DNA from: an uncultured Pelagibacteraceae bacterium
Lineage (GTDB): Bacteria > Pseudomonadota > Alphaproteobacteria > Pelagibacterales > Pelagibacteraceae
Direction of reading: 5' to 3'
Assembly: GCA_902598735.1 (NCBI GenBank)
Contig: CACKCM010000001.1
Coordinates: forward strand, 1 to 64,000
Length of the DNA: 64,000 bases
Shown here: positions 37,190 through 54,942 of the stretch, piece after piece
Layout of the letters: each line of letters begins with the position of its first letter
Numbering within the stretch: position 1 is the first letter of the stretch
Notes under the pieces: model-generated
What the model saw: the letters and a program-made list of their open reading frames with translations, nothing else
What the model was told of the DNA's origin: nothing
Database searches by the model: none
Made by a program: the position numbers and the translations under genes

Positions 37190-37974
37190 TGAGTTTAATG
37201 AAAGGTAAAAAGGGTCTAATTATGGGTGTTGCAAACGAACGCTCAATTGCTTGGGGTATATCTCAAAAACTAGCAGAAGCAGGTGCTGAGTTAGCTTTTA
37301 CATACTTAGGCGACGCTTTAAAAAAAAGAGTAATACCATTAGCCGAAAAACTGAATTCGAATATTACTTTTAGCTGTGATGTTGAAAAAAAAGAAGAGAT
37401 AGTAAAACTTTTTAACGATGTTAAGTCTAAATGGGGAAAAATTGACTTCGTTGTTCATGCGGTTGCTTTTTCGGATAAATCAGAATTGTCCGGAGAATAT
37501 TTGAATACCACAAGAGAAAATTTTCTAAGAAGTATGCTTATATCATGTTTTTCATTTACAGAGGTTTCAAAGGAGGCCTCAAGAATAATGAATGAGGAAG
37601 GTAGTTTGTTAACTCTTACATATGAGTCTAGTAAAGCAATACCCAACTATAACGTAATGGGAGTTTGTAAATCTGCTTTGGAGGCAAGTGTAAAATATTT
37701 AGCTAGAGATTTAGGGATGAAAAAAATAAGGGTAAATGCTATTAGTGCAGGACCAATAAAAACTCTAGCTGCTTCAGCGATAGGAGATGCAAAATTTTTA
37801 TATAAATGGAATGAAGACCACTCATTTTTAAAAAGGAACGTGGATATTCATGATGTCGGTAACTCTGCCCTATACTTACTCAGTAATTTAGCTGCGGGCG
37901 TGACTGGTGAGATTCATTACGTAGATGCAGGTTATAACAAAGTGGGAATGCCAGATCCTAAAAATATGACTTAA
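37189..37974 (+). CDS. fabI: Enoyl-ACP reductase (NADH)
   Basis: Last reductive step of each fatty-acid elongation cycle. A 261-residue SDR-fold protein with the FabI cofactor start ([16 protein letters not shown]), catalytic Tyr-x6-Lys as [20 protein letters not shown], and [19 protein letters not shown]. The last 4 bases overlap the end of pnp on the other strand. The neighbourhood pnp-fabI-fabB-fabA-irr is a conserved alphaproteobacterial block. Confidence 0.97.
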
Positions 37975-40043
37975 GCCGAAGCTTGTTTCATAGAAAGTTT
38001 TACTTTTCCTCTATCAAAACCAACAACTTTAACTGAAACTTCATCGCCCTCTTTCACAACATCACCTACTTTTGCTACTCGTTTTTCAGCTAGCTCAGAT
38101 ATATGGACGAGACCATCTTGTTTTCCTAAAAAGTTTACGAAAGCTCCAAATTCCATAATTTTAACGACTTTACCTTTATAAATTTTACCCATTTCTGGTT
38201 TAGCAATTAAATTTTTAATAAAATCTATAGCTTTGTTTCTTGAAGCTTCATCTGGGGCTGCAACTGTTACTTCTCCAGTATCTTTAACATCGACTTTAGC
38301 TCCTGATGTCTCAACAATTTCTCTAATTGTTGCTCCACCTTTGCCAATTACTGTAGCTATATCTTTCTTATCGACTTTAATTGTTTCTATTTTTGGTGTG
38401 TGTTTTGAAAACTCTTTTCTTGAGGTTTTTATTGCTTTATTCATTTCTTCTAAAATATGTTCTCTCCCTGCCTTAGCTTGATCTAAAGCCTTTTCCATAA
38501 TTTCAAAAGTAATACCTGTAATTTTAATATCCATTTGAAGTGAAGTTATACCATTTTTTGTTCCAGCAACTTTAAAGTCCATATCTCCTAAATGGTCTTC
38601 ATCTCCTAAGATGTCTGATAACACTGAAAAATCTTCACCTTCTTTAATTAGTCCCATAGCAATTCCAGCTACTGGCTCTTTTATAGGAACTCCTGCATCC
38701 ATTAACGATAGCGAAGTTCCACAAACTGTTGCCATTGATGAAGATCCATTGGACTCTGTTATTTCTGAAACTACTCTTAACGTATATGGAAAATTTTCTT
38801 TTTTAGGTAAAGATGAGTTTATTGCTCTCCAAGCAAGTTTTCCATGTCCTATTTCTCGTCTACCAGTACCTATTCTTCCACATTCTCCAACTGAAAATGG
38901 AGGAAAATTATAATGCAACATAAAATTTGATCTTTGCATTCCTTCAAGGCTTTCTAATCTTTGCTCATCATCTGTCATTCCAAGTGTTGTTACTACAAGA
39001 GCTTGTGTCTCTCCTCTGGTAAAAAGGGCAGAGCCATGCGTTCTTGGTAAAACACCTACTTCACATTTAATCTGTCTTACGTCTGCTAAACCTCTTCCAT
39101 CAATTCTTTTCTTTTCTTTTAAAATTGCAGTTCTCACGATATCTTTTTCTAAAGATTTTAATTGACTCATTACCTGATTTTCTGAAACATTTTCATCTTC
39201 TGCAAAAAGTTCTTTACATTGAGTTTCTATTTCAGAAATAGCTGTCGATCTTTTTTTCTTATCTATTTCTTTAAAAGCACTTCTTAAACTACTTTCAAAT
39301 TTCTCGGTTATCTTCTTCTTAATTTCGGAGTGATCCACTTCTTCAACTTCCCATTTTGGTTTTCCAACTTTTTTAGCTAGTTTTTCGATTGCTTCAATTA
39401 CTGGTACAAAGTTTTCGTGCCCAAATTTAACTGCATTTAACATGACCTTTTCAGATAATCCTGACGTTTCTGATTCTACCATCAAAACCGCATCTTTAGT
39501 TCCAGCAACAACTAGATCTAGCTCGGACTCTTTCATCTCCTCTACTGATGGATTTAATAAATATTTTCCATCTTTATATCCAACTCTACTAGCTGCTATC
39601 GGTCCTAAGAATGGTAATCCTGATATTGCAAGAGCTGCAGAAGATGCAATGATTGATAAAATGTCAGGTTGATTTTCACTATCGTAAGACAAAACTGTGG
39701 GAAGTACTTGAACTTCATTCATAAAACCAGTTGGAAACAATGGTCTTATAGGTCTGTCTATTAATCTAGAAATTAATGTTTCAGCCTCTGTAGGTCTAGC
39801 TTCTCTTTTAAAATATCCACCAGGTATTTTACCCGCTGCATAATATTTTTCTTGGTAATTTACTGATAGCGGGAAATAATCCTGACCTTCAGCAACTTTT
39901 TTTGCACCCACTGCTGTTGCTATTACTACTGTCTCTCCTAATGTGGCTAAGATAGCTCCATCCGCTTGTCTTGCTACTTTGCCTGTTTCTAAAGTTAATT
40001 TTTTACCATTAACTTCTAATTCTTCCTTCTGTATTTTGAACAT
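37971..40043 (-). CDS. pnp: Polyribonucleotide nucleotidyltransferase (PNPase)
   Basis: Phosphorolytic 3'-5' exoribonuclease; 690 residues. Two RNase PH domains with RDG-type segments ([37 protein letters not shown]), the linker alpha domain, KH ([14 protein letters not shown]) and S1 ([22 protein letters not shown]) are in the usual order. Its ATG overlaps the rpsO stop by one base. Cold-shock autoregulation is known in the family, but no leader is visible here because rpsO abuts it. Confidence 0.97.
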
Positions 40044-40303
40044 TATTTCCTTAAATTTAATTGTTTAATAACTTTTAGGTAGGACTCAGAATTTTTCTTT
40101 TTTAAATAAGAAAGAAGTTTTTTTCTCTTATTAACTGATTTTGTTAAACCTAAAGTTGAGTGTTTATCTTTTTTAAATTTCTTAAAATGGTCTGATAATT
40201 TTGTAATCTTATCAGTAAGTAAACCGATTTGTATCTCTGTTGATCCAACGTCTTTAGCGTGAATAGCTAATGATTTAATTGTATCTTTTTTTTTCTTTAT
40301 CAT
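40043..40303 (-). CDS. rpsO: 30S ribosomal protein S15
   Basis: Primary 16S rRNA binding protein, 86 residues. Family motifs are [32 protein letters not shown] and [12 protein letters not shown]...VIKQLNLRK. The start cannot be moved downstream without losing the first helix, so the 29-bp overlap with rbfA appears real. In most Alphaproteobacteria truB lies between rbfA and rpsO; it is missing here. Confidence 0.96.
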
Positions 40304-40670
40304 TAATTTTATTTTCTTTTATAATTTTTTCAATCTTTTCAGCATATTCGAATGAGTTATCTTCAACAAATGTAAGTTTAGGAAGAAACTTAATATCTAG
40401 CCTTTTAGATAGCGCTTTTCTAACAAGATGAGAGTATTCAGTCAAGATTTTTACTGTTTCTGTAATTTCAGAACCACCTAATGGAATGACGTAAATTCTT
40501 GCTGTTTTAAGGTCTGGGGTCATTCTTACCTCCGTTACTGTTATAAATTTAGAGTTCATGTTTGGAATTTTTGCTTCGTTCCTAATAAATAGTTCTCCCA
40601 AGTTTTGTTTTACTAATTCTCCAACTCTAAGTTGTCTTTGACTGAAAGGTTTTTGATTAATTTGTCCCAT
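40275..40670 (-). CDS. rbfA: Ribosome-binding factor A
   Basis: 30S maturation factor of 131 residues with the KH-like fold: RQLRVGELVKQNLGELFIR at the start and ITVTEVRMTPDLKTARIYVIPLGG in the middle, then VRKALSKRLDIKFLPKLTFVEDNSFEYAEKIEKII. It follows infB with a 1-base overlap and runs 29 bases into rpsO. Confidence 0.95.
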   Translation of the reverse strand: MGQINQKPFSQRQLRVGELVKQNLGELFIRNEAKIPNMNSKFITVTEVRMTPDLKTARIYVIPLGGSEITETVKILTEYSHLVRKALSKRLDIKFLPKLTFVEDNSFEYAEKIEKIIKENKINDKEKKRYN

Positions 40671-42853
40671 TAAATTGTTCTTTGTATTTTTTCTGCGTCA
40701 TAACATTCAATAATATCTTTTTCTTTGAAATCAATGAAGTCTTTCACGCTTATACCGCACTCCAAACCAGTGCTTACCTCTTTCACCTGATTCTTCTCTC
40801 TATAAATTGACATGATTTCACCATTGTAAACAACCGCTCCATCCCTAATAATTCTTGCTTTGGACTTATTTTTAATTTCACCACTTAACACTTTTGATCC
40901 TGCAATTTTTCCCGCGTTAGAAACCTTAAAAATTTTTTGAATTTCTGCACTTCCCAAAACAGTTTCTTTTATGTCAGGCTCTAAAAGACCTGATAAAGAA
41001 TTTTCGATATAATCTAATGCCTCATAGATTATATTAAAAAATTTAATATCTTTTTTTTGCTCTTCAGCTAATTTTTTCGCTTCTTTGCTTGGTTTTACAT
41101 TAAATCCTATTAAGATTGCGTTAGAGGCTTGAGCTAAAGAAACGTCCGTTTCGTTAATCATTCCGATGTCAGATAAAATAATTTTTGCTTCTACTTCGTT
41201 ATGTTTTATCTTATTGATAGCTGTTGTTAACGCTTCTTTTGATCCTTGTACGTCTGACTTGATTATAATATTAAGTTCATCTTTATTTTTTTCTTCATCA
41301 AATAAGGTTGTTTTATCTTTAGCAAAAATTTTTGTAGTCAACGATCTATCTTTTTTAAACTCTGACATTTTTTTTGCTTCATTTTCGTTATTTGTAACTA
41401 CAAAATCAGCTCCTGCATAAGCTGAACTGTTCATGCCTAAAACCTCCACTGGCATAGATGGAAAGGCTTCATTTAACATTTTACCTTCATAATTAATCAT
41501 AGCTCTTATTTTACCCCAGGTATCTCCACAAATAAAATAATCGCCTTTACTAAGTTTTCCATTTGTTATTAAAACAGTAGAAACCGGACCTTTGCCTTTA
41601 TCAATTTTAGATTCAATTACTACGCCTCTAGCATTTCCAGAATATGATGCTTTCAAATCTAGAATTTCAGATTGGAGTAATATGCTTTCTTTTAGTTTAT
41701 CTAAATTAGTTTTTTTAAGGGCAGAAACCTCCACGAATAACGTGTCTCCACTTAATTCTTCTGCTATCAATTCATACTGCATCATTTCATTTTTGATTTT
41801 TCCGATGTTTTTGTTTGGTAAATCACATTTATTTATCGCAACAATTATTGGAACTTTTGCAGCTTTTGCGTGTTTTATTGCCTCAACTGTTTGAGGTTTA
41901 ACTCCGTCGTCAGCTGCTACCACTAACACGACAATATCAGTTATCTTAGAACCTCTTGCTCTCATTTCGGTAAAGGCAGCATGGCCAGGTGTATCTATAA
42001 ATGTTATCAATTCTTTGTTAGACGTCTTAATTTGATATGCACCAATATGTTGTGTAATCCCCCCATATTCGCCAGCAACCACATTTGAGTCTCGCAAAGA
42101 GTCTAGCAGTGAAGTTTTTCCGTGATCTACATGCCCCATTATTGTTACCACTGGAGGCCTCACTTGAATTTCACCTTCTACTTTTTGTTTAATTTTTGAA
42201 GTCTCAATCGACGGTTTCTCCTCTAAAATTGGTTTATGTCCAAATTCTTTTACAATGTATTCTGCTGTATCTTTATCAATATTATGATTTATAGTTGCCA
42301 CAACTTTCATATTAAAGAGAAATTTAATTATTTCACTTGATTTCTCTGCCATACGATTTGATAGTTCTTGAATGGTAATTTGCTCTGGAATTTTTACCTC
42401 TCTTATTACTTTTTTAAACTCCTTTTTTTCTTCTCCCTCAGGTTTATTTTTTCTCTCTTTCAGTCTTGCTCGCTTTACAGATGCTAAACTCCTTTGCTTA
42501 ATTTCAATTTCTTCTACGTTTAGTGCTCTAGAAACGGTTAATTTGAAATCTCTTTTATCAACTGAAGTTTTTAATTTAAGTTTACTTTTTCCAGTTGGTT
42601 TATTATCTTTTTTAATAAATTCTTTTGTTGCTTGTTGTTCAATGAACTTTCTAGCAAAATTTTTTCTTTTGATATCTTGATTAAAATTTTGATTAGATAA
42701 AAAGTTTGATTTATTAAGATTTTTATTCGATTTGAAAGGTTTTTTTTTCTCTACAGAAAAAGATTTTTTTCCTGAAGTTGAAATAGAAGAGGTGTCTATT
42801 TTTTTTTTTAAACTAGAGGATATGGTAAGTGTTTTTTTTTTATCTTTTTCCAT
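40670..42853 (-). CDS. infB: Translation initiation factor IF-2
   Basis: GTPase that places initiator tRNA on the 30S subunit. I use the ATG at 42853 ([10 protein letters not shown]), 4 bp after the nusA stop; an in-frame TTG at 42871 would overlap nusA. About 727 residues, shorter than the typical alphaproteobacterial 850-950. The reduction is in the Lys-rich N-terminal region. G-motifs [22 protein letters not shown] and NKCDLPN are present, followed by the C-terminal domains. Confidence 0.97.
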
Positions 42854-42857
42854 ATTA

Positions 42858-44408
42858 TTATTTATAAACAATCTCCCTTGCTGCCATGATTAATTCGTCT
42901 GCTTCTTTCCTAGAAAGTGAAAACTCCTCAAGATATCCCTCGATTCTAATTTTTTTTCCTTTTACCTCATCAAAACCCCCAATTAGTTCATCTGAAGATA
43001 AATCAGCAAAATCAACTAATTTTTTAATATTTTTTTGGCCTAGAATAACAAGCATTCCTTGGGTCATTCCTTTTAAATTAATTAATTTTTCCTCAACTCC
43101 TAATTCTCTTAATTTATTGGATACTGCCTCTTTTTCTTTAACCACTGTTTCCTTAGATCTATTTATTAATTCATTTGCAGTTTCTGCATCGATTGCATCA
43201 ATTTTTGAAATATTTTCAGGGCTCGATTGAGCAATTTCTTCTATGGATGTGAAGCCCTCTGATACAAGTAATTGACCTAGAGTTTCATCTACCTCAAGGT
43301 TTTTTATTAAATTTTCTGTTCTCTCTTTAAATTCTGTCTGACGTCTTTCAGAGTCTTCTTTATCAGTTAAAATATCAATTTCGTAATTTGTAAGTTTTGA
43401 AGCCAGTCTTACATTTTGACCTCTTCTTCCGATTGCTTTACTTAGATTTTCTTCGGTTAAAATTATATCAATCCTTTTGTTATCTTGATCTATCAAAACT
43501 CTTTGTATTTCTGCTGGTGATAAAGACTCAGATATTAAACTCGGAAGATCTTCTGTCCATTTAATTATATCAATTTTTTCTCCATGAAGTTCATTAACTA
43601 TAGTTTGAACCCTACTTCCTCTCATACCCACACATGCGCCAACAGGATCAATGGATGAGTCTTGTGAGTAAACACAAATTTTAGCTCTACTACCAGGATC
43701 TCTTGCTACAGATTTGATTTCAATTGTACCCTCATAAATCTCTGGAACTTCTTGAAAAAATAATTTTGCTAGAAATTGGGGATGAGCTCTCGATAAAAAT
43801 ATTTGATGACCTTTTAATTCTTTTTTTACCTCATAACAGTAAGCTTTGACCCTATCACCTGTTTTAAGTATTTCTCTCGGAATTAGTTCATCTTTTTTTA
43901 TAATTCCTTCAGCTTTACCCAAGTCAATAATTACATTTCCGTATTCTAACCTTTTAATTATACCGCTTAGAATTTGACCTTGCTTGTCAATAAAATCTTC
44001 ATATTGTCTATTTTTTTCAGCTTCTCTTACTCGGGCACTAATTACCTGTTTAGCACTTTGAGCTGCGATACGACCAAAATCAATTTGTGGCAATTCTTCA
44101 AAAATTTTTTCGCCAACTTTTAATTCTGAATTATCTTTATCAACTTTTATTGCATCATCTATAGTGATCTCTCTGGCAGGATCTTCTACCTTTTCGACTA
44201 TTTCTAAAACCTTCTGAATTTTTATTTCTCCGGTATCACGATTTATTATTACTTCAATGTTATTATCATTTCCAAATTTCGTTAAAGCTGCCTTTTGTAT
44301 AGCACTTTCCATTGATCCTATAACTAACTCTTTATCAATTGATTTTTCATTAGCTACAGCTTCAACTATTCTTAACAATTCAAGTTTGTCTAATCCTCTA
44401 TTCAACAT
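42858..44408 (-). CDS. nusA: Transcription termination/antitermination factor NusA
   Basis: RNA polymerase factor for pausing, termination and antitermination; 516 residues. The N-terminal RNAP-binding domain (LLRIVEAVANEKSIDKELVIGSME), S1 (ILSGIIKRLEYGNVIIDLG), and KH1-KH2 (DPVGACVGMRGSRVQTIVNEL; KAIGRRGQNVRLAS) are followed by two helix-hairpin-helix-like repeats. A strong Shine-Dalgarno AGGAGC (44416-44421) sits 7 bp before the ATG, immediately after a terminator hairpin. The usual upstream rimP and downstream ylxR are missing. Confidence 0.97.
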   Translation of the reverse strand: MLNRGLDKLELLRIVEAVANEKSIDKELVIGSMESAIQKAALTKFGNDNNIEVIINRDTGEIKIQKVLEIVEKVEDPAREITIDDAIKVDKDNSELKVGEKIFEELPQIDFGRIAAQSAKQVISARVREAEKNRQYEDFIDKQGQILSGIIKRLEYGNVIIDLGKAEGIIKKDELIPREILKTGDRVKAYCYEVKKELKGHQIFLSRAHPQFLAKLFFQEVPEIYEGTIEIKSVARDPGSRAKICVYSQDSSIDPVGACVGMRGSRVQTIVNELHGEKIDIIKWTEDLPSLISESLSPAEIQRVLIDQDNKRIDIILTEENLSKAIGRRGQNVRLASKLTNYEIDILTDKEDSERRQTEFKERTENLIKNLEVDETLGQLLVSEGFTSIEEIAQSSPENISKIDAIDAETANELINRSKETVVKEKEAVSNKLRELGVEEKLINLKGMTQGMLVILGQKNIKKLVDFADLSSDELIGGFDEVKGKKIRIEGYLEEFSLSRKEADELIMAAREIVYK

Positions 44409-44415
44409 TTATAAT

Positions 44416-44421
44416 GCTCCT
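44416..44421 (-). promoter_or_regulatory. Ribosome binding site of nusA
   Basis: AGGAGC on the minus strand, 7 bases before the nusA ATG at 44408. It is one of the best Shine-Dalgarno sequences in the window and fixes this start. It directly follows the T-tract of the terminator hairpin, so no room for a promoter remains between terminator and start. Confidence 0.75.
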
Positions 44422-44448
44422 AAAAAAAAATGGGCTAATGCCCATTTT
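44422..44448 (-). terminator. Intrinsic terminator between metK and nusA
   Basis: A 9-bp perfect stem (AAAATGGGC / GCCCATTTT, 44427-44435 and 44440-44448) with a TAAT loop. On the minus strand it is followed by a run of T (A-run 44422-44430 on plus). It should end the metK transcript. Because it lies only 13 bases before the nusA ATG, any transcript starting upstream must read through it to express nusA, so it may act as an attenuator. Confidence 0.85.
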
Positions 44449-44469
44449 GAATTTCAATAATATGTTTTA

Positions 44470-44497
44470 AATATAAAGAAAATTATGGTTTTTTCAA
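44470..44497 (-). promoter_or_regulatory. Candidate promoter for nusA in the metK-nusA gap
   Basis: On the minus strand TTGAAA (44492-44497) is followed, after 16 bases, by TATATT (44470-44475), a fair sigma-70 match. It starts just inside the end of the metK region and predicts transcription from about 44463, upstream of the hairpin. By-eye call in AT-rich DNA, where such matches arise by chance, so support is modest. Confidence 0.4.
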
Positions 44498-44499
44498 GA

Positions 44500-45660
44500 T
44501 TACAGCTTAAATAAATTCGCTTTATCTGTTTTTTCCCAGGAAAATTCACCTTTATTTGTTGGTTTTCTTCCAAAGTGTCCATACGCTGAAGTAACTTCGT
44601 AAATCGGATTATTTAATTTTAACATTTCTCTAATTCCTCTGGGAGATAAGTCGAAATTTTGATTTATTATTTTTTTTATTGTGTCAACCTTTCCATCATC
44701 TCCGTCATTCAGTTTAATAAATACTGATAAAGGTTTAGAAACTCCGATAGCATATGCTAGTTGAATTAAACATTTATCAGAAACTCCTGAGGAAACAATA
44801 TTTTTAGCAAGATATCTTGCTACATACGCTGCAGACCGATCCACTTTTGTTGGATCTTTACCAGAAAAGGCTCCTCCTCCATGTGGTGCAGCTCCACCAT
44901 ATGTGTCAACAATAATTTTTCTTCCAGTCAAGCCCGTATCACCATCAGGCCCACCAATTACAAATTTTCCTGTTGGATTTATATAAATTTCTTGTGGATC
45001 CAAATCATTAAGATAATTTTCAGGTATAGATTTTTTTATGTAAGGAATAATTAAATTCCTTACATCTTCTTGGCTTAAGTCATTTGAATGTTGAGAAGAA
45101 ATTACAACTGATGTAACTTTTGTAGGCTTATTTTGCTCATATAACATTGTGACCTGACTCTTAGAGTCAGGTTCAATACCTTTAAGAATTCCATTTTTTC
45201 TATCTTGAGCCATCAACCTTAATATCTTATGGGAGAAATGTATTGGCGCTGGCATTAAATCTTCTGTCTCTTTGCATGCATAACCAAACATAATTCCTTG
45301 ATCGCCTGCTCCTTCATCTTTGTTGTCTCTTGAATCAACGCCTATTGCAATATCTTTCGATTGTTCGTGAAGATGTGTCTCTATATTGGCTGTTTTCCAA
45401 CTAAAACCTTCTTGATCATAACCTATATCTTTAATACAATTTCTTACTTTATTTATTAACTCCTCTTTTTCAATTTTTGGTCCTCTAATTTCTCCAGCTA
45501 AGACAACTTTGTTTGTTGTGGTAAGCGTTTCACATGCTACTCTAGATACTGGATCTTTAGACAAATAAGAGTCTACTACCATATCTGAGACTCTATCACA
45601 CACCTTATCGGGATGACCTTCTGAGACTGACTCGCTAGTGAAGAGATAGTTATTTTTCAT
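44500..45660 (-). CDS. metK: S-adenosylmethionine synthetase
   Basis: Makes SAM from methionine and ATP; 386 residues. Conserved parts: [52 protein letters not shown] and [19 protein letters not shown]. The start overlaps the end of lnt by 11 bp, so there is no leader for a SAM riboswitch. A hairpin terminator follows the gene. Confidence 0.98.
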
Positions 45661-47212
45661 TATTTTTTTTATACAAGTTAAAGATCAAAATATATGTAAA
45701 TAAAACTACAAAAAATATCAAATCATTTTTATTTTTATTTTTATTTTTTATTAAGGGCACTTGATATTCTATATGACCAGTTTCTGTATTATTCAGTTTT
45801 TTTATAATCTCTCCCTTGTTATTAATGATCGCACTGATGCCTTTATTTGTAGATCTAATCAGAAATGAGTTGTGTTCTATAGCTCTAAAAATACCTTTTG
45901 CGAAATGCTGATGAGGACCTATAGAATTTCCGAACCAACCATCCTCGGATATATTAATAATTAAATTTGTTTGTTCATTAGATTTTTGAATAAACTTTGG
46001 AAAAATAACCTCATAACAAATTAATGGTAATATATTTAGTTGACCGATTATTAAGTTATCTTGAATTTTACCTTTTATAAATGAAGTATGACCTTCTGTA
46101 ATTTTTTTTAAACCAAATTTATTTAGCTGTTGCTCAAACGGAAGAAATTCTCCAAAAGGAACTAATTTTTGTTTGTTATAATTTTCTATTATTTCTAGAT
46201 TATGATTAGCAACAATCATACTGTTATAAAATCCTTTTTTTGTGGTGTCAAAAATATTAATCCCAAAAAGAATAATATGATTTTCACTAAAACTAGTTTG
46301 AAAAATTTTCTTAAATTGAATTATTTCTTTAAAACTATATCCACTAAATACACCCTCAGGCCATACAAAAAGTGTTTTTTTATTTTTTTTTGGATCACTA
46401 TATCTAATTAACTTATCTAATCTATTTTTCATTTCTTCAATTGAGATACCATATTCAAGATTAAAATTAGGAGAGACTACCTTGATATTATAATTATCAA
46501 TAGCTGTAGATAAAAATAATTTATTTTTATTAATTGAATAATTACCGTACATGTAAAGAGAGAAGAGAATTAATATTATAGATATAAAAATCAAAAATTT
46601 TTTATGAATTTTATCATTGCAAAATATAAAAGCAGGTAAAGTAAAAATTGTAATAATCAATAGATTAAAAAGAAAAAGTCCTGTCTTTTCTAGGATTTGA
46701 ATTATTTCAGTTGACCAGGAAAAACTATAGGCCCAAAGGTTCCAAGGAAAACCTGATAATAGTTTAGCACGTAAATAGTCAGAAAATGAAAGACTGCCAG
46801 AAAGAAGAAAAATTGATTTTAAATTTAAACTTAAAAAAGGGCCAATTATTAATGTAACAATTGAAAAAAATAAACTCAAAAATAGTGGAACTAAAATTAA
46901 TCCAAAAGGAATTAAAAATTTAAAACTCTCATCAAATGTTAGTGAATTTGTTATCCAATGAATTCCACTTAAATAATAGCCAAAACCGAATGATGTACCA
47001 AATATGAAAAGATGCAGCTTAAACGGTTTCTTTCTATAAATACTTTTTGATTTTTTTTTTATAAAAATAATTAAATAAAAAAATATAGGTAATATAAAAA
47101 AATTTATAAAAGTAAGATTAAATGGTTGAAAAGATAAAACAGTTAAGCAACCAAGTAAAAATGGAGTAAAGTATAAAGTAAAAAATTTATTGTTAAGATA
47201 TTTAACAATCAT
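45650..47212 (-). CDS. lnt: Apolipoprotein N-acyltransferase
   Basis: Adds the third acyl chain to lipoproteins in the inner membrane; 520 residues. About six N-terminal TM helices precede a nitrilase-like domain. The catalytic triad is visible: Glu in [11 protein letters not shown], Lys in [13 protein letters not shown] and Cys in [11 protein letters not shown]. One more TM segment is at the C-terminus. It starts one base before the ybeY stop; the corC/tlyC gene often found between ybeY and lnt is absent. Confidence 0.96.
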
Positions 47213-47680
47213 TTAATTTAAATATGAGAGAAATTTTTTTTCAACTTTCATCATATCATAAAAATCTTTATTTTTTTTATGATCATAACCTAAAAGGTGA
47301 ACTAATCCATGTATCCATAGTTTATTAAACTGGTTATTAAAATTTAGATTTTCATATCTGCCTTTTTTAATTTTGTTTAGATTTATAATAATATCTCCTA
47401 AGTAAATTTCTGTCTCTTTTTTTAATTTAATTTTTAATTCTCTTTTGCTATAGAAGGGAAAAGACAATACATCTGTTGTTTTATTTTTTCCTCTAAATTT
47501 TTTATTCAATTTTTTTATTTCTTGATTGCCAGACAATAAAATAGTTAAAAATATTTTATTATTTTTATATTTCTTAAATTTTTTGTTTAACTTTAAAATT
47601 TTCCTTTCAATAAAATTCTTGGGATTTTTAATATATTTATTCCAATCTTTGTTATTAGAGATAGTATTAATCTTTATCAT
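47213..47680 (-). CDS. ybeY: Endoribonuclease YbeY
   Basis: Metal-dependent RNase for 16S 3'-end maturation and ribosome quality control. I take the ATG at 47680; the preceding TTG is less likely. 155 residues with the H3xH5xH zinc motif HGLVHLLGYDH and the upstream KKLNKKFRGKNKTTDVLSFPF segment typical of the family. It overlaps the phoH-like gene by 14 bp, and lnt follows directly. Confidence 0.95.
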   Translation of the reverse strand: MIKINTISNNKDWNKYIKNPKNFIERKILKLNKKFKKYKNNKIFLTILLSGNQEIKKLNKKFRGKNKTTDVLSFPFYSKRELKIKLKKETEIYLGDIIINLNKIKKGRYENLNFNNQFNKLWIHGLVHLLGYDHKKNKDFYDMMKVEKKFLSYLN

Positions 47681-48671
47681 CAATACTTTTCTTTTGATAA
47701 GCCTTTATTATTTTTGAAACTAATGGATGTCTAACTACATCATTGTGATCAAATTCAATAATTTTTATTTCCTTCAAATGTTTTAATAATTTTGTTGATT
47801 TGATTAATCCAGACTGAGATTTATTTATTAAGTCAATTTGTGAAGGATCGCCATTAACTACTAGTTTTGAGTTTTCACCAATTCTTGTTAAAAACATTTT
47901 AATTTGAGTTTCCGTAGCATTTTGAGCTTCGTCTAATATTGCAAAACAATTTTTTAAAGTTCTCCCTCTCATAAATGCTAAAGGCGCAATCTCGATTTCT
48001 CCGCTCTCTATTTTTTTATCAATTTTATCTGTACCAAATAATTCGTAAAGAGCGTCATATAAAGGTCTTAAATACGGATCTACTTTCTCCTTCATGTCTC
48101 CTGGTAGAAAACCTAATTTTTCACCAGCTTCTACTGCAGGCCTTGATAAAATTACTCTTTCAATTTTTTTCTCTATTAGCATTGTGACTCCAACTGATAC
48201 TGCTAAGAAACTTTTTCCTGTACCAGCTGGGCCTAAAGACATTACAATGTCATTTTCTTTTAAAGCCTTAATATAATCAGATTGCTTTTCGGATCTTGCA
48301 ATTACAGATTTTCTTGGAGTTTTTATCAACTGTTTGAAACTCTTAACGTTTGACTCTTTGAATTCCATATTTTTTTGCACGGACAATGCTATATCCTCTT
48401 TTTCAATCATTTTTGTTAAAGTATACTTATTTATTAAAAATTTAATTGCCTCACAAAATATATCAATATTATCCTTGATGCCTTTGCAAGTAATTGAGTT
48501 TCCTCTAAAAAATATTTCAGTATTTGTAAGTTTAGATAGTTCTTTTAAGTTTTGATCAAATTCGCCTACTACAGACATTAACATTTCATTGTCTATAATT
48601 TGAATGTTAGATGTTTTATCATCTATTTTTTTAATTATTATATTTTGATTTAATTTTGTTATTTCTGACAT
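47667..48671 (-). CDS. PhoH-like ATPase (YbeZ)
   Basis: P-loop ATPase of 334 residues that partners YbeY in RNA metabolism. An N-terminal KH-like region precedes Walker A (SLGPAGTGKSFLAVSVG), the conserved RPAVEAGEKLGFLPGDMKEKVDPYLRPLYDAL segment, and the Walker B region (CFAILDEAQNAT). It sits between miaB (2-bp gap) and ybeY (14-bp overlap), the standard order. Confidence 0.95.
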   Translation of the reverse strand: MSEITKLNQNIIIKKIDDKTSNIQIIDNEMLMSVVGEFDQNLKELSKLTNTEIFFRGNSITCKGIKDNIDIFCEAIKFLINKYTLTKMIEKEDIALSVQKNMEFKESNVKSFKQLIKTPRKSVIARSEKQSDYIKALKENDIVMSLGPAGTGKSFLAVSVGVTMLIEKKIERVILSRPAVEAGEKLGFLPGDMKEKVDPYLRPLYDALYELFGTDKIDKKIESGEIEIAPLAFMRGRTLKNCFAILDEAQNATETQIKMFLTRIGENSKLVVNGDPSQIDLINKSQSGLIKSTKLLKHLKEIKIIEFDHNDVVRHPLVSKIIKAYQKKSIDDKD

Positions 48672-48673
48672 TG

Positions 48674-50008
48674 TTAAGCAGCAAAACCTTTACAAATTTT
48701 ATTTTGTGTAAGTTCTCCAAATAAGGTATTTTGATTTCCATCAATTATTTTAACTTCTTTAGTTTTTCCTATCAAATTTTCATCACTTCTAACAATTACA
48801 GAGTTTAGGTACTCGTCTCTCCCAAAGTAATTCATTTTTTTACCTATTGCGTTTTCAAATAAAACTGATGATTTTTTGTTAAATAAATTTTTTCTATAAT
48901 TCATCTTTATATCCTGGGCTACTGTTTGAAAAGTAATTAATCTTTCTTTAGCAATATCAAGGTCTATTTTTTTCATACTAGCCGCTGGTGTGCCTGGTCT
49001 TGGGCTAAAAATAAAAGAGAAAGTATTTATAAATTCAACTTTTTTTAATAATTCTAACGTTTCTTGAAAATCAATATCATTTTCTCCGGGAAAACCAATT
49101 ATAAAGTCGCTTGAAAATTTGATTGATGGTTTATTTTTTTTTAGTTTATCAATTAGGTCCAAGTAATTTTCTACAGTGTGTTTTCTATTCATGCTTCTTA
49201 AAATTTTATTAGATCCACTCTGAACAGGAAGATGTATCATTGGCATAAGTTTATCAAATTCCAAATGCGCATGTATGAGGTCTTCAGAAAAATCTATAGG
49301 ATGAGAAGTTGTATACCTAATTCTTTCTAATTTATCGATTTTAGAGATCTCATTGATTAGATGTGAAAGTTTTTTACCGCCAAAATTATAAGCATTAACA
49401 TTTTGACCTAATAAAGTAATTTCTTTTGCGCCATTTTCGACAAGATCAATCGACTCTCTTATTAATTCTTTGATTGATCGAGAATACTCAGAACCTCTGG
49501 TGTAAGGAACGACACAAAATTTGCAAAATTTATCGCAACCTTCTTGAATAGTTAAAAAGCTTGAGATTTTATTATTTGAGTTTTTGATTGAATTTAAGTT
49601 GTCAAATTTATCAATCACATCAAAATTAGTAGAATTTACTTTAATAATTCTTTTTTCTAATTTTAGTATTGTTTCATTTAAATTCTGATAAGACTGTGGT
49701 CCTATTACAGCATCAATATATTTTTCTTTTTCCAAAAGAACCTCTCCCTCTGCCTGCGCAACACATCCTGTAATAATAATTATTGGTTTATTTTTATTTT
49801 TAAAGACTTTTTTAACTCTACCGATATCATGATAAACCTTGTCAGTAGCTTTTTCTCTAATGTGGCAGGTATTCAATACATAGCAGTCAGCTTCATGAAT
49901 ATTATTTGTCTTCTTATAATTAATTTTTTTTACAAGGTCATAAATACGATTACTGTCATATTCATTCATCTGACAACCAAATGTTTTTATAAAAATTTTT
50001 TTTTCCAA
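48674..50008 (-). CDS. miaB: tRNA-2-methylthio-N6-dimethylallyladenosine synthase
   Basis: Radical-SAM methylthiotransferase for A37 in tRNAs; 444 residues. The N-terminal UPF0004 domain has its cysteines (TFGCQMNEYDS, LNTCHIREKA, GCVAQAEG); the radical-SAM cluster motif is EGCDKFCKFCVVPYTRG; a C-terminal TRAM-like domain follows. It begins one base after fur on the same strand. Confidence 0.97.
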   Translation of the reverse strand: MEKKIFIKTFGCQMNEYDSNRIYDLVKKINYKKTNNIHEADCYVLNTCHIREKATDKVYHDIGRVKKVFKNKNKPIIIITGCVAQAEGEVLLEKEKYIDAVIGPQSYQNLNETILKLEKRIIKVNSTNFDVIDKFDNLNSIKNSNNKISSFLTIQEGCDKFCKFCVVPYTRGSEYSRSIKELIRESIDLVENGAKEITLLGQNVNAYNFGGKKLSHLINEISKIDKLERIRYTTSHPIDFSEDLIHAHLEFDKLMPMIHLPVQSGSNKILRSMNRKHTVENYLDLIDKLKKNKPSIKFSSDFIIGFPGENDIDFQETLELLKKVEFINTFSFIFSPRPGTPAASMKKIDLDIAKERLITFQTVAQDIKMNYRKNLFNKKSSVLFENAIGKKMNYFGRDEYLNSVIVRSDENLIGKTKEVKIIDGNQNTLFGELTQNKICKGFAA

Positions 50009-50009
50009 T

Positions 50010-50429
50010 TTATTTTTTTATTTTTGATCCGTAGAGTTCAAGTTTGTGATCAACTAAATTGTATCCTAGTTTCTTTGCAATTTTTTTTTGCAGTTCCTCT
50101 ATATCTTTATCTACAAACTCTATGATTTCTCCACTATTAATATCAATTAAATGATTGTGATCATCATTTATTTCATAGCGAGCTTTACCAGCTTTGAAGT
50201 CATGTTTTATTAAAATACCAGCTTCCTCAAAAAGTTTAACAGTTCTGTAAACAGTAGCAATGCTTATTTTATCATCAATTGATGTTACTCTTTTATGGAG
50301 CTCGTCTACATCTGGATGATCTTTTGATCCGTAAACTTCTTTTGACTCTGAGAGAACTCTTGCAATTACTTTTCTCTGATCAGTGAGTCTTACTCCTTTT
50401 TGCTTGCACTTTTCTTCAATAACGCTCAT
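50010..50429 (-). CDS. fur: Fur-family metalloregulator (Fur/Mur)
   Basis: 139-residue Fur-family repressor. The winged helix contains KISIATVYRTVKLFEEAGIL and the dimerisation domain DDHNHLIDINSGEIIEFVD with metal-binding His. It lacks the structural CxxC pairs of many Fur proteins; only one Cys (residue 8) is present. This fits the alphaproteobacterial Mur (manganese) branch as well as Fur. It sits before miaB in the conserved order; the rimI gene usually found between tsaB and fur is missing. Confidence 0.88.
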   Translation of the reverse strand: MSVIEEKCKQKGVRLTDQRKVIARVLSESKEVYGSKDHPDVDELHKRVTSIDDKISIATVYRTVKLFEEAGILIKHDFKAGKARYEINDDHNHLIDINSGEIIEFVDKDIEELQKKIAKKLGYNLVDHKLELYGSKIKK

Positions 50430-50437
50430 ACATTAAT

Positions 50438-50821
50438 TTAACTTAAATAGATGGCCTTAATCAATTTTTTTTCAATTAAATTTTTATTTATGAGTTTTTC
50501 GACATTTTCTTGGTTAAAATCCTTCAAATCAGTGTTCTTATAACCAAATAATTTCACTTTTTTTGAAATTGCCATACCTTTTGCGACGGCTAAAGATATT
50601 CTTACTCCTGAAAAACTGCCAGGCCCTTGGTTAATAATAATACTGAAGTTTTTATCTAATTTGACTTTATGATCATCTAAAAAATTATATATTTCTAATA
50701 CTAGCTGCTCTGCTTTATTTTTTTCATCTTTTAAATTGTGAATAAAAAAATCTTTATTTATTCTAAGAGCTAATTTATCATTACTACCTATGAAATGGAT
50801 AATTAAAAAATTTTTAATCAT
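50438..50821 (-). CDS. tsaB: Minimal TsaB-like protein (t6A synthesis)
   Basis: From the ATG at 50821 it has 127 residues; a typical TsaB has 210-230. The N-terminal ASKHA half is recognisable (NFLIIHFIGSNDKLALRI, then NQGPGSFSGVRISLAVAKGMAI, the TsaB hallmark), but the C-terminal domain is reduced to about 25 residues. The beta-strand that usually reads ILAIDTS is degenerate (LIIHFIGS). The genomic position beside fur is right for tsaB. Its 5' end overlaps head-to-head the 5' end of the deacetylase gene on the other strand by 32 bp. Confidence 0.8.
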   Translation of the reverse strand: MIKNFLIIHFIGSNDKLALRINKDFFIHNLKDEKNKAEQLVLEIYNFLDDHKVKLDKNFSIIINQGPGSFSGVRISLAVAKGMAISKKVKLFGYKNTDLKDFNQENVEKLINKNLIEKKLIKAIYLS

Positions 50822-51845
50822 TTTTTTTATTATAATACCTTTTGATAGCAATCAATCCAAGTTATTGGCTTTAGACAACTATATATTTGATGATTTTGGA
50901 CTGATATCAATTATGTATCACAGATTTAATGAAAATAAATATCCTTCAACAAATATTCAGCTAGATGTTTTTAAAAAACAACTTGAAATAATTAAAAATG
51001 AAAAAATTAAATTTATAAGTCCAAAGGATTTTGAGGCGAGTCTTTCAGAAAAAAAAGGGGAAAGAAAAATTCTGCTTACAATTGATGATGGGTTGTTATC
51101 TTTTTATGAAAATGCTTGGCCTATTTTGAAGGAGAAAAAGATTCCATTTATTTTATTTGTGAATACTCGAGAAGTAGGGTCTTTTAATTACATGGATTGG
51201 GATCAAATCATAGAATTACATAAAGAAGAAAATGTTGAAATAGGAAATCATAGTCATTCTCATGAATATTTAGTTAATGAAAGTCCTAAAATCATCAAAC
51301 AAGATATTAAAAAATCTATAGAAATATTTGAAAAAAAACTTGGAAAGAATTCAGATTTTTTTTCTTATCCTTTTGGAGAGTATAGTCTTGTATTTAAAAA
51401 TATAATTAAAGATTTAGGATTTAAATATGCTTTTGGACAGCATTCTGGAGTAATCGACGAAACAAAAGATCTATGGGAACTGCCCAGATTTCCTATTAAT
51501 GAAAAGTATGGAGAGTTAAATAGGTTTAAAACTTTAATGAAAACCTTGCCTTTTAAGTATAAAAAAATTTCTCCTGAAGAGAAGCACCTACAACAATCAA
51601 ACAACCCCCCATCTATTAATATAAAATTTTTTGAAAACATCAAAAATTTAAACAATATTAATTGTTTTTCGAATGAGGGTAATAAATGGAGAAATTCCGA
51701 AATTAATTTTATAGAAAAAGCAGTTTTAGAAATAAAGATAGTTGAAAAATTTATTGGTGAGAGAGGTAGAATAAATTGTTCACTTAAAGAAAAACATGGT
51801 TTCTGGAGATGGCTAGGTATTCAGTTCGTGATTAGTGAAAAATGA
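50790..51845 (+). CDS. Secreted polysaccharide deacetylase-family protein
   Basis: 351 residues. A hydrophobic N-terminus (KKFLIIFFIIIPF) looks like a signal peptide and supports the ATG at 50790, even though the first 32 bases overlap tsaB on the other strand. The NodB-type domain shows ISIMYHRFNENKYPSTN, catalytic Asp pair TIDDGLLSFYEN, metal-binding H-x-x-x-H as GNHSHSHEYL, and FSYPFGEYS. Substrate may be peptidoglycan GlcNAc or another envelope glycan. It ends one base before the convergent glucosaminidase gene, another wall enzyme. Confidence 0.87.
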   Translation: MKWIIKKFLIIFFIIIPFDSNQSKLLALDNYIFDDFGLISIMYHRFNENKYPSTNIQLDVFKKQLEIIKNEKIKFISPKDFEASLSEKKGERKILLTIDDGLLSFYENAWPILKEKKIPFILFVNTREVGSFNYMDWDQIIELHKEENVEIGNHSHSHEYLVNESPKIIKQDIKKSIEIFEKKLGKNSDFFSYPFGEYSLVFKNIIKDLGFKYAFGQHSGVIDETKDLWELPRFPINEKYGELNRFKTLMKTLPFKYKKISPEEKHLQQSNNPPSINIKFFENIKNLNNINCFSNEGNKWRNSEINFIEKAVLEIKIVEKFIGERGRINCSLKEKHGFWRWLGIQFVISEK

Positions 51846-51846
51846 T

Positions 51847-53376
51847 TCAAGACTTAAGTTCAACCTGTTTTACAGAGTTTACTAATTTTACAGGTTCAAA
51901 ATCAGATAAACCGTTTTGAGTTATTATTTGATTAAGTATTTTTGTATATTCGGATCCAGTTTGAGCATAATTTTTAAGAGTATCTGTTAACGAAAGGCCA
52001 GAAATTTTTTTATTTCTATCTCTTAGTTGTTTTCTTTTTTCTCTAAATTTCTGGTAACTTTTATGTGTGTTTAAGTTATTTTTATAAGCCTTAACTGAAG
52101 CCCTTAAAATTGGAAATTTTAAAATTTTATGGTTTTTATCACCATCCCTTTTAAGCGGGGCAATACCTTGACCATCCCATGTCCATTGACCAAATATAGC
52201 ATTACCCTCTAAAGCAAATCTAGATGTTCCCCAGCCACTTTCCTTAGCTGCTTGTGCTAAAGCGATAGACACCGGAACCATATCCATTTTAATCATTAAC
52301 TCACTAAGATTAGATTTTTTGACTTTATATTCTAAAAGTTTTTGTCTTAACCATTGTTTTTCTAAATCTGAAGTATATTTTTTTTCAACTAAAGTTTTTA
52401 ATTTTTCTCTATCATCTAGAATTTTTTCATTTTCCGCTACTATCAGAGGTAAAACAATTTTAATAAATGTTTCTTTTTTCAGTTGCACACTTTGTAAGTT
52501 GTCAAGATCTCTCGGGAATTGTGTGAAATATATCGGTTTAACTAATTTTTCATTTCTTACTTTCCTTAAATCATAGTCTACATCTTTAAAAAGTTGAATC
52601 ACAGTTTCTGTTTTTAAATTTAGATCAGGCAAAATGACTTCAGCTACGTTGTTTCTTTTCACTTTGAGTTCAGGTTTCTTTTCTTCTTTTTTTGCTTGAA
52701 TTTTTGGTTTTTTTTCATCTTTCTTAACCTTTTTTTCATCTTTTTTAACTTTAATTTCTGGTTTCTTTATTTCTTTCTTTACTTTCTGTTCAGGTTTTTT
52801 TAACTCCACTTCTTTGTCGAAGAAATCAAAATTTTTATAATTACTAATTCCTACAAATATTGCAGTTGTTATTCCTACAACAAGAAAGAAGCCGATAATT
52901 ACATTCCGAGCACTTTTTTGGTCTATTTGTTGATTGTAAATTGAATTAAACACATCAGTGAAAAGATTTCCAAAGAATTTACCAACTGTAAAGCCAAGTG
53001 TAGGTAAAACGTTTAGAAAGTTTATACCAGCATTACCAATACCCTTCCATAAAGTATTTAATCCAAGATTAAATCTTCTAGAGGTGTCATGCTTATAATT
53101 TTCTACTCTTCTTAAAAATCTATTTTTGTCTTTTATAGTTTCTTCTTTTAAATCAATAATATTTGATTTTATTTTAGAAACTGGTTTAACAAAATTTTCC
53201 TTGAAAAAACTAGTTTTGAATTCTTTTGGAATAATTATCTTATTTTTTTTTAAGATTAATTCAATTTGACCAGTTGTAAGATTTTTTCTTCTCTTTGTAT
53301 ATTCTTGTATCTCTTTAACATTATAAATATATGCTAACTCTAGTAACTTATCTCTATAACTTAATTTTTTTTTCAT
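51847..53376 (-). CDS. Membrane-anchored glucosaminidase (Bax-like)
   Basis: 509 residues in three parts: a basic cytoplasmic region of about 158 residues, one TM helix near 159-180, then a periplasmic section. The latter begins with a Lys/Glu/Pro repeat (190-241) and ends with a glucosaminidase/Bax domain (ALAQAAKESGWGTSRFALEGNAIFGQW, candidate catalytic Glu in AKESGWG; LKNYAQTGSEYT). It probably hydrolyses peptidoglycan. The long cytoplasmic part is unusual for Bax proteins and has no family I recognise. It lies between nfuA and the convergent deacetylase gene, inside the conserved nfuA-tsaB synteny. Confidence 0.83.
   Translation of the reverse strand: MKKKLSYRDKLLELAYIYNVKEIQEYTKRRKNLTTGQIELILKKNKIIIPKEFKTSFFKENFVKPVSKIKSNIIDLKEETIKDKNRFLRRVENYKHDTSRRFNLGLNTLWKGIGNAGINFLNVLPTLGFTVGKFFGNLFTDVFNSIYNQQIDQKSARNVIIGFFLVVGITTAIFVGISNYKNFDFFDKEVELKKPEQKVKKEIKKPEIKVKKDEKKVKKDEKKPKIQAKKEEKKPELKVKRNNVAEVILPDLNLKTETVIQLFKDVDYDLRKVRNEKLVKPIYFTQFPRDLDNLQSVQLKKETFIKIVLPLIVAENEKILDDREKLKTLVEKKYTSDLEKQWLRQKLLEYKVKKSNLSELMIKMDMVPVSIALAQAAKESGWGTSRFALEGNAIFGQWTWDGQGIAPLKRDGDKNHKILKFPILRASVKAYKNNLNTHKSYQKFREKRKQLRDRNKKISGLSLTDTLKNYAQTGSEYTKILNQIITQNGLSDFEPVKLVNSVKQVELKS
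52654..52809 (-). repeat. Lys/Glu/Pro-rich degenerate repeat within the glucosaminidase gene
   Basis: Codes residues about 190-241 as imperfect copies of units such as KKPEIKVKKDEKKVKKDEKK and KKEEKKPELKVK, resembling TonB-like spacers that bridge the periplasm. DNA copies are imperfect, so this is likely to vary in length between strains. Confidence 0.7.
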
Positions 53377-53379
53377 ACC

Positions 53380-53925
53380 TTAGTTTGCTTCTACTGAGTT
53401 TACCTCTTTAACATAATGTTTTAAAAGATTTTGAACGCCTTGTTTTAGTGTCATTAATGAACTAGGACAGCCAGAGCAACTGCCTTGTAATTCAACCTTT
53501 ACAACTCCATTTTCAAATGATTTAAATTTAATATCACCACCATCTCTTGCGACTGCTGGTCTTATTTTGGTATCTAAAACTTCTATAATCTTACTTACAG
53601 TTTCATCTTCATTATCTTTATTGATTGGTTCTTTTTTATCATTTAAAATTGGTTCACTATTATTTTCAAAATAGTGATTTAAGTGAGAAATAATCATGGG
53701 TTTAAGCTCATTCCAGGAAACGCTATCTGCTTTCTTTACTGATAAAAAATTTTTAGATAAAAGAACAAGTTCAACACCCTTAAATTCTAAAAGACTTTTG
53801 ATAAAATCGTTAGATAAATTAGTCGATTTGCCTTTTTGAAATTCTTCTGTGCCAATTGCAGAGATTGTTTTCTCTGAGAGAAATTTCAGTGAATTAGGAT
53901 TTGGTGTTGTTTCTGTTTGTATCAT
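53380..53925 (-). CDS. NfuA-type iron-sulfur carrier
   Basis: A 181-residue Fe-S carrier. The N-terminal Nfu_N domain starts with QTETTPNPNSLKFL; the C-terminal NifU domain holds the cluster ligands in LQGSCSGCPSSLMTLKQGVQNLL (CxxC). It delivers 4Fe-4S clusters to apoproteins; MiaB, encoded nearby, is a plausible client. Order trpS-nfuA-(...)-tsaB is common in Alphaproteobacteria. Confidence 0.94.
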   Translation of the reverse strand: MIQTETTPNPNSLKFLSEKTISAIGTEEFQKGKSTNLSNDFIKSLLEFKGVELVLLSKNFLSVKKADSVSWNELKPMIISHLNHYFENNSEPILNDKKEPINKDNEDETVSKIIEVLDTKIRPAVARDGGDIKFKSFENGVVKVELQGSCSGCPSSLMTLKQGVQNLLKHYVKEVNSVEAN

Positions 53926-53937
53926 TAGAAATTTATA

Positions 53938-54942
53938 TTATAACAGTCCAACTTTTTCACGTATATTTTTAAGGTTTTCCTCAGCAATTATATTAGCTTT
54001 TTGCTTACCTTTTTTCAAAATCTGCTCGAGATGAGCCTTATCTCCTAAAAGTTTTGTAATTTCTTTTCCAACAGGTGTTATCTCACTTATTAAAAGATCT
54101 GCTAATCTTTTTTTTAAAAAAGAATATTCTTTTCCGGACATTTCATTCAATACCTTGTCTAAACTTATTTTGGAAACGTCTGAGAAAATATTTATTAAAT
54201 TTAAAGCCTCTGGTTTTTTTTCTAAAGATTTTATATTATCTGGTATTTGTTCTGAATCAGATTTAGCTTTTTTTATTTTTTTGTTAATTTCATCAGCACT
54301 ATCTTTTAAATTAATTCTTGAATAATCGGACTCTTCAGATTTACTCATTTTTTTTGTTCCGTCTCTGAGACTCATCACTCTAGAAATATTTTTTGCAATT
54401 AAAGGTTCGGGTAAAGGAAAAAAACCTTTACAATTAAAATCATTATTAAATTTTTGCGCAATATCTCTGGATAATTCTAAATGTTGTTTTTGATCTGCTC
54501 CAACTGGTACGTGAGTAGCTTTATAAAGTAAAATATCTGCAGCCATTAAATTTGGATAAATATATAAACCAACACTAGCTTTTTCCTTGTCAACGCCAGC
54601 TTTATCTTTGAATTGCGTCATACGATTAAGCCAGCCAATTCTCGAAACACAATTTAAAATCCATGCTAATTCTGTGTGACCAGAAACAGAAGATTGATTG
54701 AATATAATACTTTTATCAGGGTTAAGTCCTGTTGCTAAAAAACTAGCTACAGTTTCCATCACATTTTTTTGAAGCAATTCTGGTTTTTGAAAAACCGTGA
54801 TTGCATGTAAGTCTACAACACAATAAATACAGTTCATTTCTTTTTGAAGAGATACAAAATTTTTTAAAGCACCTAAATAATTACCTAAATGCAAGTTTCC
54901 TGTTGGTTGAACTCCAGAAAATACTAATTTTTTTTCCGCCAT
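53938..54942 (-). CDS. trpS: Tryptophanyl-tRNA synthetase
   Basis: Class I aminoacyl-tRNA synthetase, 334 residues. HIGH-type motif in [18 protein letters not shown] and KMSKS in [11 protein letters not shown]. The substrate region ([22 protein letters not shown]) is canonical. It lies between murJ (abutting upstream) and nfuA (12-bp gap) on the same strand. Confidence 0.98.

Follow-up and report, generated by a model that had tools for sequence, protein, structure and literature searches.

We analysed a 64-kb stretch of DNA, here called the window, in which a run of genes on the minus strand reads lnt, metK, a 91-nt gap, nusA, infB, rbfA, rpsO and pnp. The gap between metK and nusA corresponds exactly to positions 44409-44499. 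Pfam searches supported the identity of the five genes downstream of the gap as well as of metK and lnt upstream of it. The features in and around the gap are the following:

44500..45660, minus strand: metK, S-adenosylmethionine synthetase, the upstream gene in the window's genus (Pfam S-AdoMet_synt N, M and C domains)
44502-44500, minus strand: stop codon of metK (from the sequence)
44492..44497, minus strand: -35-like hexamer TTGAAA, 2 bases past the metK stop (consensus scan; top conservation class in the genus alignment, n=80)
44470..44475, minus strand: -10-like hexamer TATATT, with a 16-nt spacer to TTGAAA (consensus scan; conservation in the sister genus)
44427..44448, minus strand: candidate attenuator hairpin AAAATGGGC-ATTA-GCCCATTTT with a GGGC/GCCC core (sequence, fold, SAR11 conservation)
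44422..44430, minus strand: T-tract of nine T, the first four also paired in the stem (nine T in 117 of 118 regions, ten in 1 of 118)
44416..44421, minus strand: ribosome binding site AGGAGC, immediately 3' of the T-tract (sequence; each letter of AGG kept in at least 80% of the genus alignment)
42858..44408, minus strand: nusA, first gene of nusA-infB-rbfA-rpsO-pnp (Pfam NusA_N, KH_5 and S1 above cut-off)
40670..42871, minus strand: infB (Pfam IF-2, IF2_N and GTP-binding domains)
40275..40670, minus strand: rbfA (Pfam RBFA)
40043..40303, minus strand: rpsO (Pfam Ribosomal_S15)
37971..40043, minus strand: pnp (Pfam RNase_PH, PNPase, KH_1 and S1)

The hairpin has nine perfect pairs, four of them G-C, around the loop ATTA, and the fold energy of its 22 nt was -11.3 kcal/mol. 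Its T-tract ends 13 nt before the ATG of nusA, which begins at 44408, and AGGAGC follows directly, so that the coordinates bear out the layout described in an earlier reading of the sequence alone (the sequence-only reading). A promoter would not fit into these 13 nt between hairpin and nusA. The layout therefore suggests, as that reading had proposed, that the nusA operon would be expressed only by read-through.

To compare these elements with chance expectation we scanned natural and shuffled sequence. When at least eight perfect Watson-Crick pairs with at least four G-C pairs, followed by at least eight T, were demanded, the nusA-leader hairpin was the single site in the whole window, and none of 100 dinucleotide shuffles yielded one. 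Looser terminator criteria, applied to positions 40000-54000, gave three sites against 4.1 in shuffles and therefore no excess over chance. The candidate promoter TTGAAA-16-TATATT of the sequence-only reading is present upstream of the hairpin, its -10-like hexamer at a distance of 21 nt from it, and matched the consensus at 10 of 12 positions. Eight sites in the scanned 14 kb reached 10 of 12, and 59 had nine or more matches, compared to 72.4 in shuffles. As shuffled sequence gives as many such sites, the promoter-like pair is uninformative by itself and its support comes from conservation.

Relatives of nusA were collected from species genomes, the best 80 of at least 562 confirmed, and all of them were Pelagibacteraceae, Pelagibacterales or Pelagibacter by name, which identifies the window as SAR11 (Pelagibacteraceae) DNA. 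A nusA match was found in 107 genomes, and the upstream regions of 49 of these were examined. Among the 80 related loci the gap was readable in 79 (L080 is cut off at the nusA start), each time between metK and nusA. The hairpin with its T-tract was kept in all 118 SAR11 upstream regions counted, with exactly nine T in 117, so that poor conservation, which the sequence-only reading had named as evidence against itself, is excluded. In the window's genus, the window included, the hairpin was found in 80 of 80 sequences, with 16 versions of the loop, nine T in 79 and ten T in one; the distance from T-tract to start codon, the other feature proposed for comparison, was 11-24 nt in these 80. It was likewise present in the sister genus g6 (24/24), in the loci counted from genera g5, g7 and g8 (6/6) and in those counted from family f2 (8/8), in all cases with nine T. 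Three of the six loci from g5, g7 and g8 carry a T-T mismatch just outside the core, and the stem of family f2 is mostly AAGTGGGT/GCCCACTT, i.e. G-C where the window's genus pairs A-U. Four loci (L117, L120, L121 and L132, the last a 70-nt stub) were left out of the count because tblastn found no nusA start; at the first three the covariance model described below matched at the expected place. A further set, L083-L090, comprising the window genome, six of its genus and one of genus g9, stands outside the 118 regions, and all of its members have the hairpin.

In the alignments conservation is concentrated in separate blocks with more variable sequence between them: TTGAA or TTGAT, resembling a -35 element, then a -10-like block, and the hairpin with its nine T. 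TTGA was found upstream of the hairpin in 79/80 sequences of the genus, 24/24 of g6, 4/6 of g5, g7 and g8 and 8/8 of f2. The -10-like block reads TATATT in g6 and TATAAG in f2; TATATT reached the top conservation class in 22 g6 sequences and was weaker in the window's own genus.

In the window's genus the hairpin lies downstream of metK, and other strong terminators occur within SAR11 operons. Both observations would fit a terminator that ends metK transcripts, with nusA close behind and transcribed by leakage. We consider this quite unlikely. All 14 readable loci of g5, g7, g8 and f2 have a gene between metK and the leader, and even so the hairpin is found right in front of nusA; in the three loci checked (from g7, g8 and f2) the gene was a trmB-type methyltransferase (Pfam PF02390). 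A plain metK terminator was thus rejected: because the hairpin is retained at nusA behind the trmB-type gene, it is more than the terminator of metK. The similar hairpin before rimP in other alphaproteobacteria, described below, also speaks against it. The intervening gene is present in L113-L116, L118, L119 and L122-L129 and missing from this place in the window's genus and in g6; the window's own genome, 84% complete, gave only a weak PF02390 match, elsewhere.

As controls we followed three ordinary terminators of the window's own genome through the 30 best-scoring genus loci each (one locus being cut off). Two were almost invariant in stem and T-run, with nine T in 24/30 and 28/29 readable loci, and the third had seven T in 27/30 and varied in its inner stem pairs; two of the three have G-rich 5' arms. 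The flanks of the control loci were 88-99% identical, so this set is less diverged than that of nusA. We therefore rejected two arguments, that an invariant stem proves regulation and that exactly nine T are special, and regard stem stability and nine T within the genus as habits of SAR11 terminators, since the controls show both. The nusA leader stands out by its position in front of nusA, shared by different genera and families, and by its likeness to rimP leaders elsewhere.

Another possible reading is that the hairpin is a constitutive partial terminator that fixes the output of the nusA operon and involves no feedback. Comparable terminators split transporter operons of the same genome (genes named by eye), and no alternative antiterminator fold is visible: in the minimum-energy fold of the one sequence folded the hairpin was kept and its GGGC arm had no competitor. 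Against such a fixed terminator stand its class-wide retention at the one operon that encodes a termination factor and the feedback that has been reported for this operon's counterpart in B. subtilis (PMC12288461) and proposed for that in E. coli (PMC6511841). We concluded that it is an unlikely explanation.

To see whether related leaders exist outside SAR11 we used a class sample of 144 alphaproteobacterial genomes, two of them SAR11, in which the RimP_N domain was detected in 126, and compared the 30 best-matching rimP loci of other alphaproteobacteria. The pattern GGGx..yCCC followed by at least four T occurred within 350 nt upstream of the RimP domain in 18 of the 30. On the opposite strand it was found in 4/30, three of which are the same palindromes, and in the downstream 350-nt stretch in 0/30. 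A covariance model built from the 18 pattern loci matched 11 of the remaining 12, although three of these matches were weak (E 0.08-0.11). This brings the loci with a similar hairpin before rimP to 29 of 30; the model matches lie 42-173 nt before the RimP domain. This model, made solely from rimP leaders of other alphaproteobacteria, also matched the expected place in all 19 SAR11 loci from L113 to L131, four of the matches being weak (E 0.15-0.21). In E. coli K-12 it found the hairpin before rimP with 14.9 bits. On 464 kb of the window's own genome the window site came out on top with 23.8 bits, followed closely by an ordinary terminator with 23.6 bits, which means that so short a model is not specific by itself. 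That part of the genome (464 of 889 kb) contains 42 terminator candidates with at least six T, some sites being counted on both strands. No Rfam family reached its gathering threshold in the window; the gammaproteobacterial rimP leader RF01770 scored 18.1 bits (E 0.94) at the hairpin against a gathering threshold of 47, and a loose threshold gave 15 weak matches around the hairpin, none close to its own threshold.

A structure alignment of 35 rows was obtained by fitting sequences to the model. It covers 32 of 33 loci (L172 fell below the cut), and in three rows (L145, L140, L134) a palindromic site was matched on the opposite strand. Of the cells of the helix, 99.6% were paired. In 17 cells, all in the outer helix pairs, both partners had changed, a number reached by 0/500 shuffles; the number of pairs with such changes, three, was reached by 79/500. 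In the core two G-C pairs never varied and the third changed only to G-U, in two rows, a constancy that is partly built in because the 18 sequences of the model (R1) were picked by the GGG..CCC pattern. The letters flanking the core differ between the groups, being mostly AAAT/ATTT in the window's family and GT or GC opposite AC or GC in the 18 other alphaproteobacterial leaders.

These paired changes are also relevant to the idea that the 22-bp palindrome is a DNA operator bound by a repressor. The site is a perfect inverted repeat whose arms are almost invariant and whose centre is variable in the genus, and a search of the window's own genome for ATGGGCN(3-6)GCCCAT gave a single place. The constant-length T-tract on one side and the base changes that preserve the helix across families fit an RNA hairpin instead, and we regard an operator as highly improbable.

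The hairpin precedes nusA itself in SAR11, and we asked whether rimP is found in these genomes. None of 41 genomes from the order gave a match to the N-terminal domain RimP_N, and this includes the 14 that are at least 90% complete; the C-terminal RimP domain was likewise detected in none of 38 SAR11 genomes, 37 of them at least 90% complete. The two genome samples overlap. Both searches found their domain in 10 of 14 controls, among them Caulobacter. With no rimP found in SAR11, the leader stands directly on nusA. Another 16 genomes of the class sample gave no RimP_N match, and 12 of these had a usable nusA. Four of the 12 (L163, L167, L172, L174) have a terminator hairpin with G-rich and C-rich arms upstream of nusA, which in two of them lies close to the gene; the model scored L172 and L174 only weakly (E 0.06 and 0.3). 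No such hairpin was seen before nusA in the remaining eight. Retention of the leader without rimP thus applies to every SAR11 region examined, yet it is no general rule.

In the rimP-leader of Naville and Gautheret (2010, PMC2965389) a terminator whose stem reads GGGc(...)gCCC precedes rimP-nusA-infB, and no antiterminator is visible in their account; NusA was their favoured effector and the choice between RimP and NusA was left undecided. The SAR11 leader resembles this description (PMC2965389) in its GGGc(...)gCCC terminator stem, in the U-stretch right after the stem (nine T), in its distance to the first gene of the nusA-infB operon, which is 13 nt in the window and was given there as 4-130 nt, and in having no visible antiterminator in the one sequence folded. 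It differs from that description (PMC2965389) in that nusA and not rimP comes first. Because rimP is absent as the first gene, we file the SAR11 leader as a variant and not as a standard member of the rimP-leader.

Corresponding operons of other bacteria offer further comparisons. For B. subtilis it was reported that nusA is controlled by termination in its 5' leader, which NusA stimulates (PMC12288461), and an intrinsic leader terminator governs entry into nusA there as it would in SAR11; the B. subtilis rimP leader is 180 nt long, as quoted in PMC2965389. The NusA dependence is reported there (PMC12288461), whereas for SAR11 we infer it. In E. coli, operon transcripts were reported to rise in mutants with reduced NusA termination (PMC6511841). 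The E. coli leader has an arrangement like that in SAR11, in which TGGGCTTTAGGCCC leads into a run of seven T that stops 17 nt short of rimP; the three outermost pairs of the rimP-leader model do not form in this hairpin. The metY-rimP-nusA-infB operon is unlike that of SAR11 in its two terminators upstream of rimP, its tRNA gene and its three promoters (PMC6511841). For the S. agalactiae operon gbs0413-gbs0418 termination 31 nt after the start was described and NusA feedback proposed (PMC4448216). It shares the very short leader with SAR11 and differs in that the operon has rimP and that its RNA ends were measured (PMC4448216). Among the matches listed in a literature search by titles and abstract openings there was nothing on a SAR11 nusA leader (the species list in the supplement of PMC2965389 was outside its scope), and the main text of PMC2704228, on structured RNAs of Pelagibacter, mentions neither nusA nor rimP.

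Taken together, we propose that the element is a transcription attenuator of the rimP-leader type, placed directly on nusA after loss of rimP in SAR11, by which NusA would exert feedback through premature termination; we put the probability of this reading at roughly 70%. In the predicted course of events RNA polymerase would start at the promoter past metK or read through from upstream. A start at the promoter-like site would produce a leader of about 40-42 nt ending at the T-tract. This leader would fold into the GGGC/GCCC hairpin with its U-tract, where part of the polymerases would stop, and the remaining ones would transcribe nusA-infB-rbfA-rpsO-pnp. More NusA would lead to more termination and less NusA to more read-through, so that NusA would keep its own operon at a set level. 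The start site, actual termination at the T-tract and NusA as the thing sensed are what we infer for this scheme. The sequence-only reading had suggested a simple feedback attenuator in the nusA leader. Its first part, a leader attenuator before nusA, is well supported by comparative sequence evidence, namely the position and core letters conserved across SAR11, the linkage to nusA and not to the upstream gene, and the match to rimP leaders; NusA feedback is the favoured idea for the rimP-leader in general. Judged by its parallels in B. subtilis, E. coli and S. agalactiae, the SAR11 leader most likely serves NusA as a feedback brake on its own operon, nusA-infB-rbfA-rpsO-pnp.

The element is thus of a known kind. 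New is its occurrence in an operon that lacks rimP, and this speaks against RimP as the sensed protein. A more far-reaching version, to which we give an even chance, is that the rimP leader is ancestral and was retained when SAR11 lost rimP and, in the window's genus and a sister genus, again when the trmB-type gene disappeared from this place, so that it persists as a self-contained NusA-sensing leader of about 42 nt. RimP would then not be the feedback protein, and NusA would recognise the GGG/CCC letters of the core, since the outer pairs covary and the core does not. If true, SAR11 would represent a natural deletion experiment for the rimP leader. That so large a clade retains the leader on nusA while no rimP is detected in it favours NusA as the sensed protein, as did the 2010 description. 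The very short leader would also be useful for testing the action of NusA on a terminator. SAR11 bacteria are known to possess few regulators, and a feedback brake on their central transcription and translation operon would be among their few recognisable control elements.

Two further observations were made. When the whole gap was folded (44418-44499, minus strand), the conserved TCTTGAAAAA past the metK stop paired with part of the U-tract and AGGA, a predicted pairing that would mask the ribosome site in read-through transcripts from metK. Both partners are almost constant within the genus, which places this fold beyond judgement by covariation. Strong terminators were also found inside apparent transporter operons of the window's own genome, at L182:8560-8596 (minus strand), L179:11530-11559 (plus strand) and L178:2320-2350 (minus strand), for example separating the gene of a sugar or TRAP-type binding protein from a permease gene (names given by eye from the translations). 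These terminators, which possibly set the ratio of binding protein to permease, were conserved in the genus loci followed.
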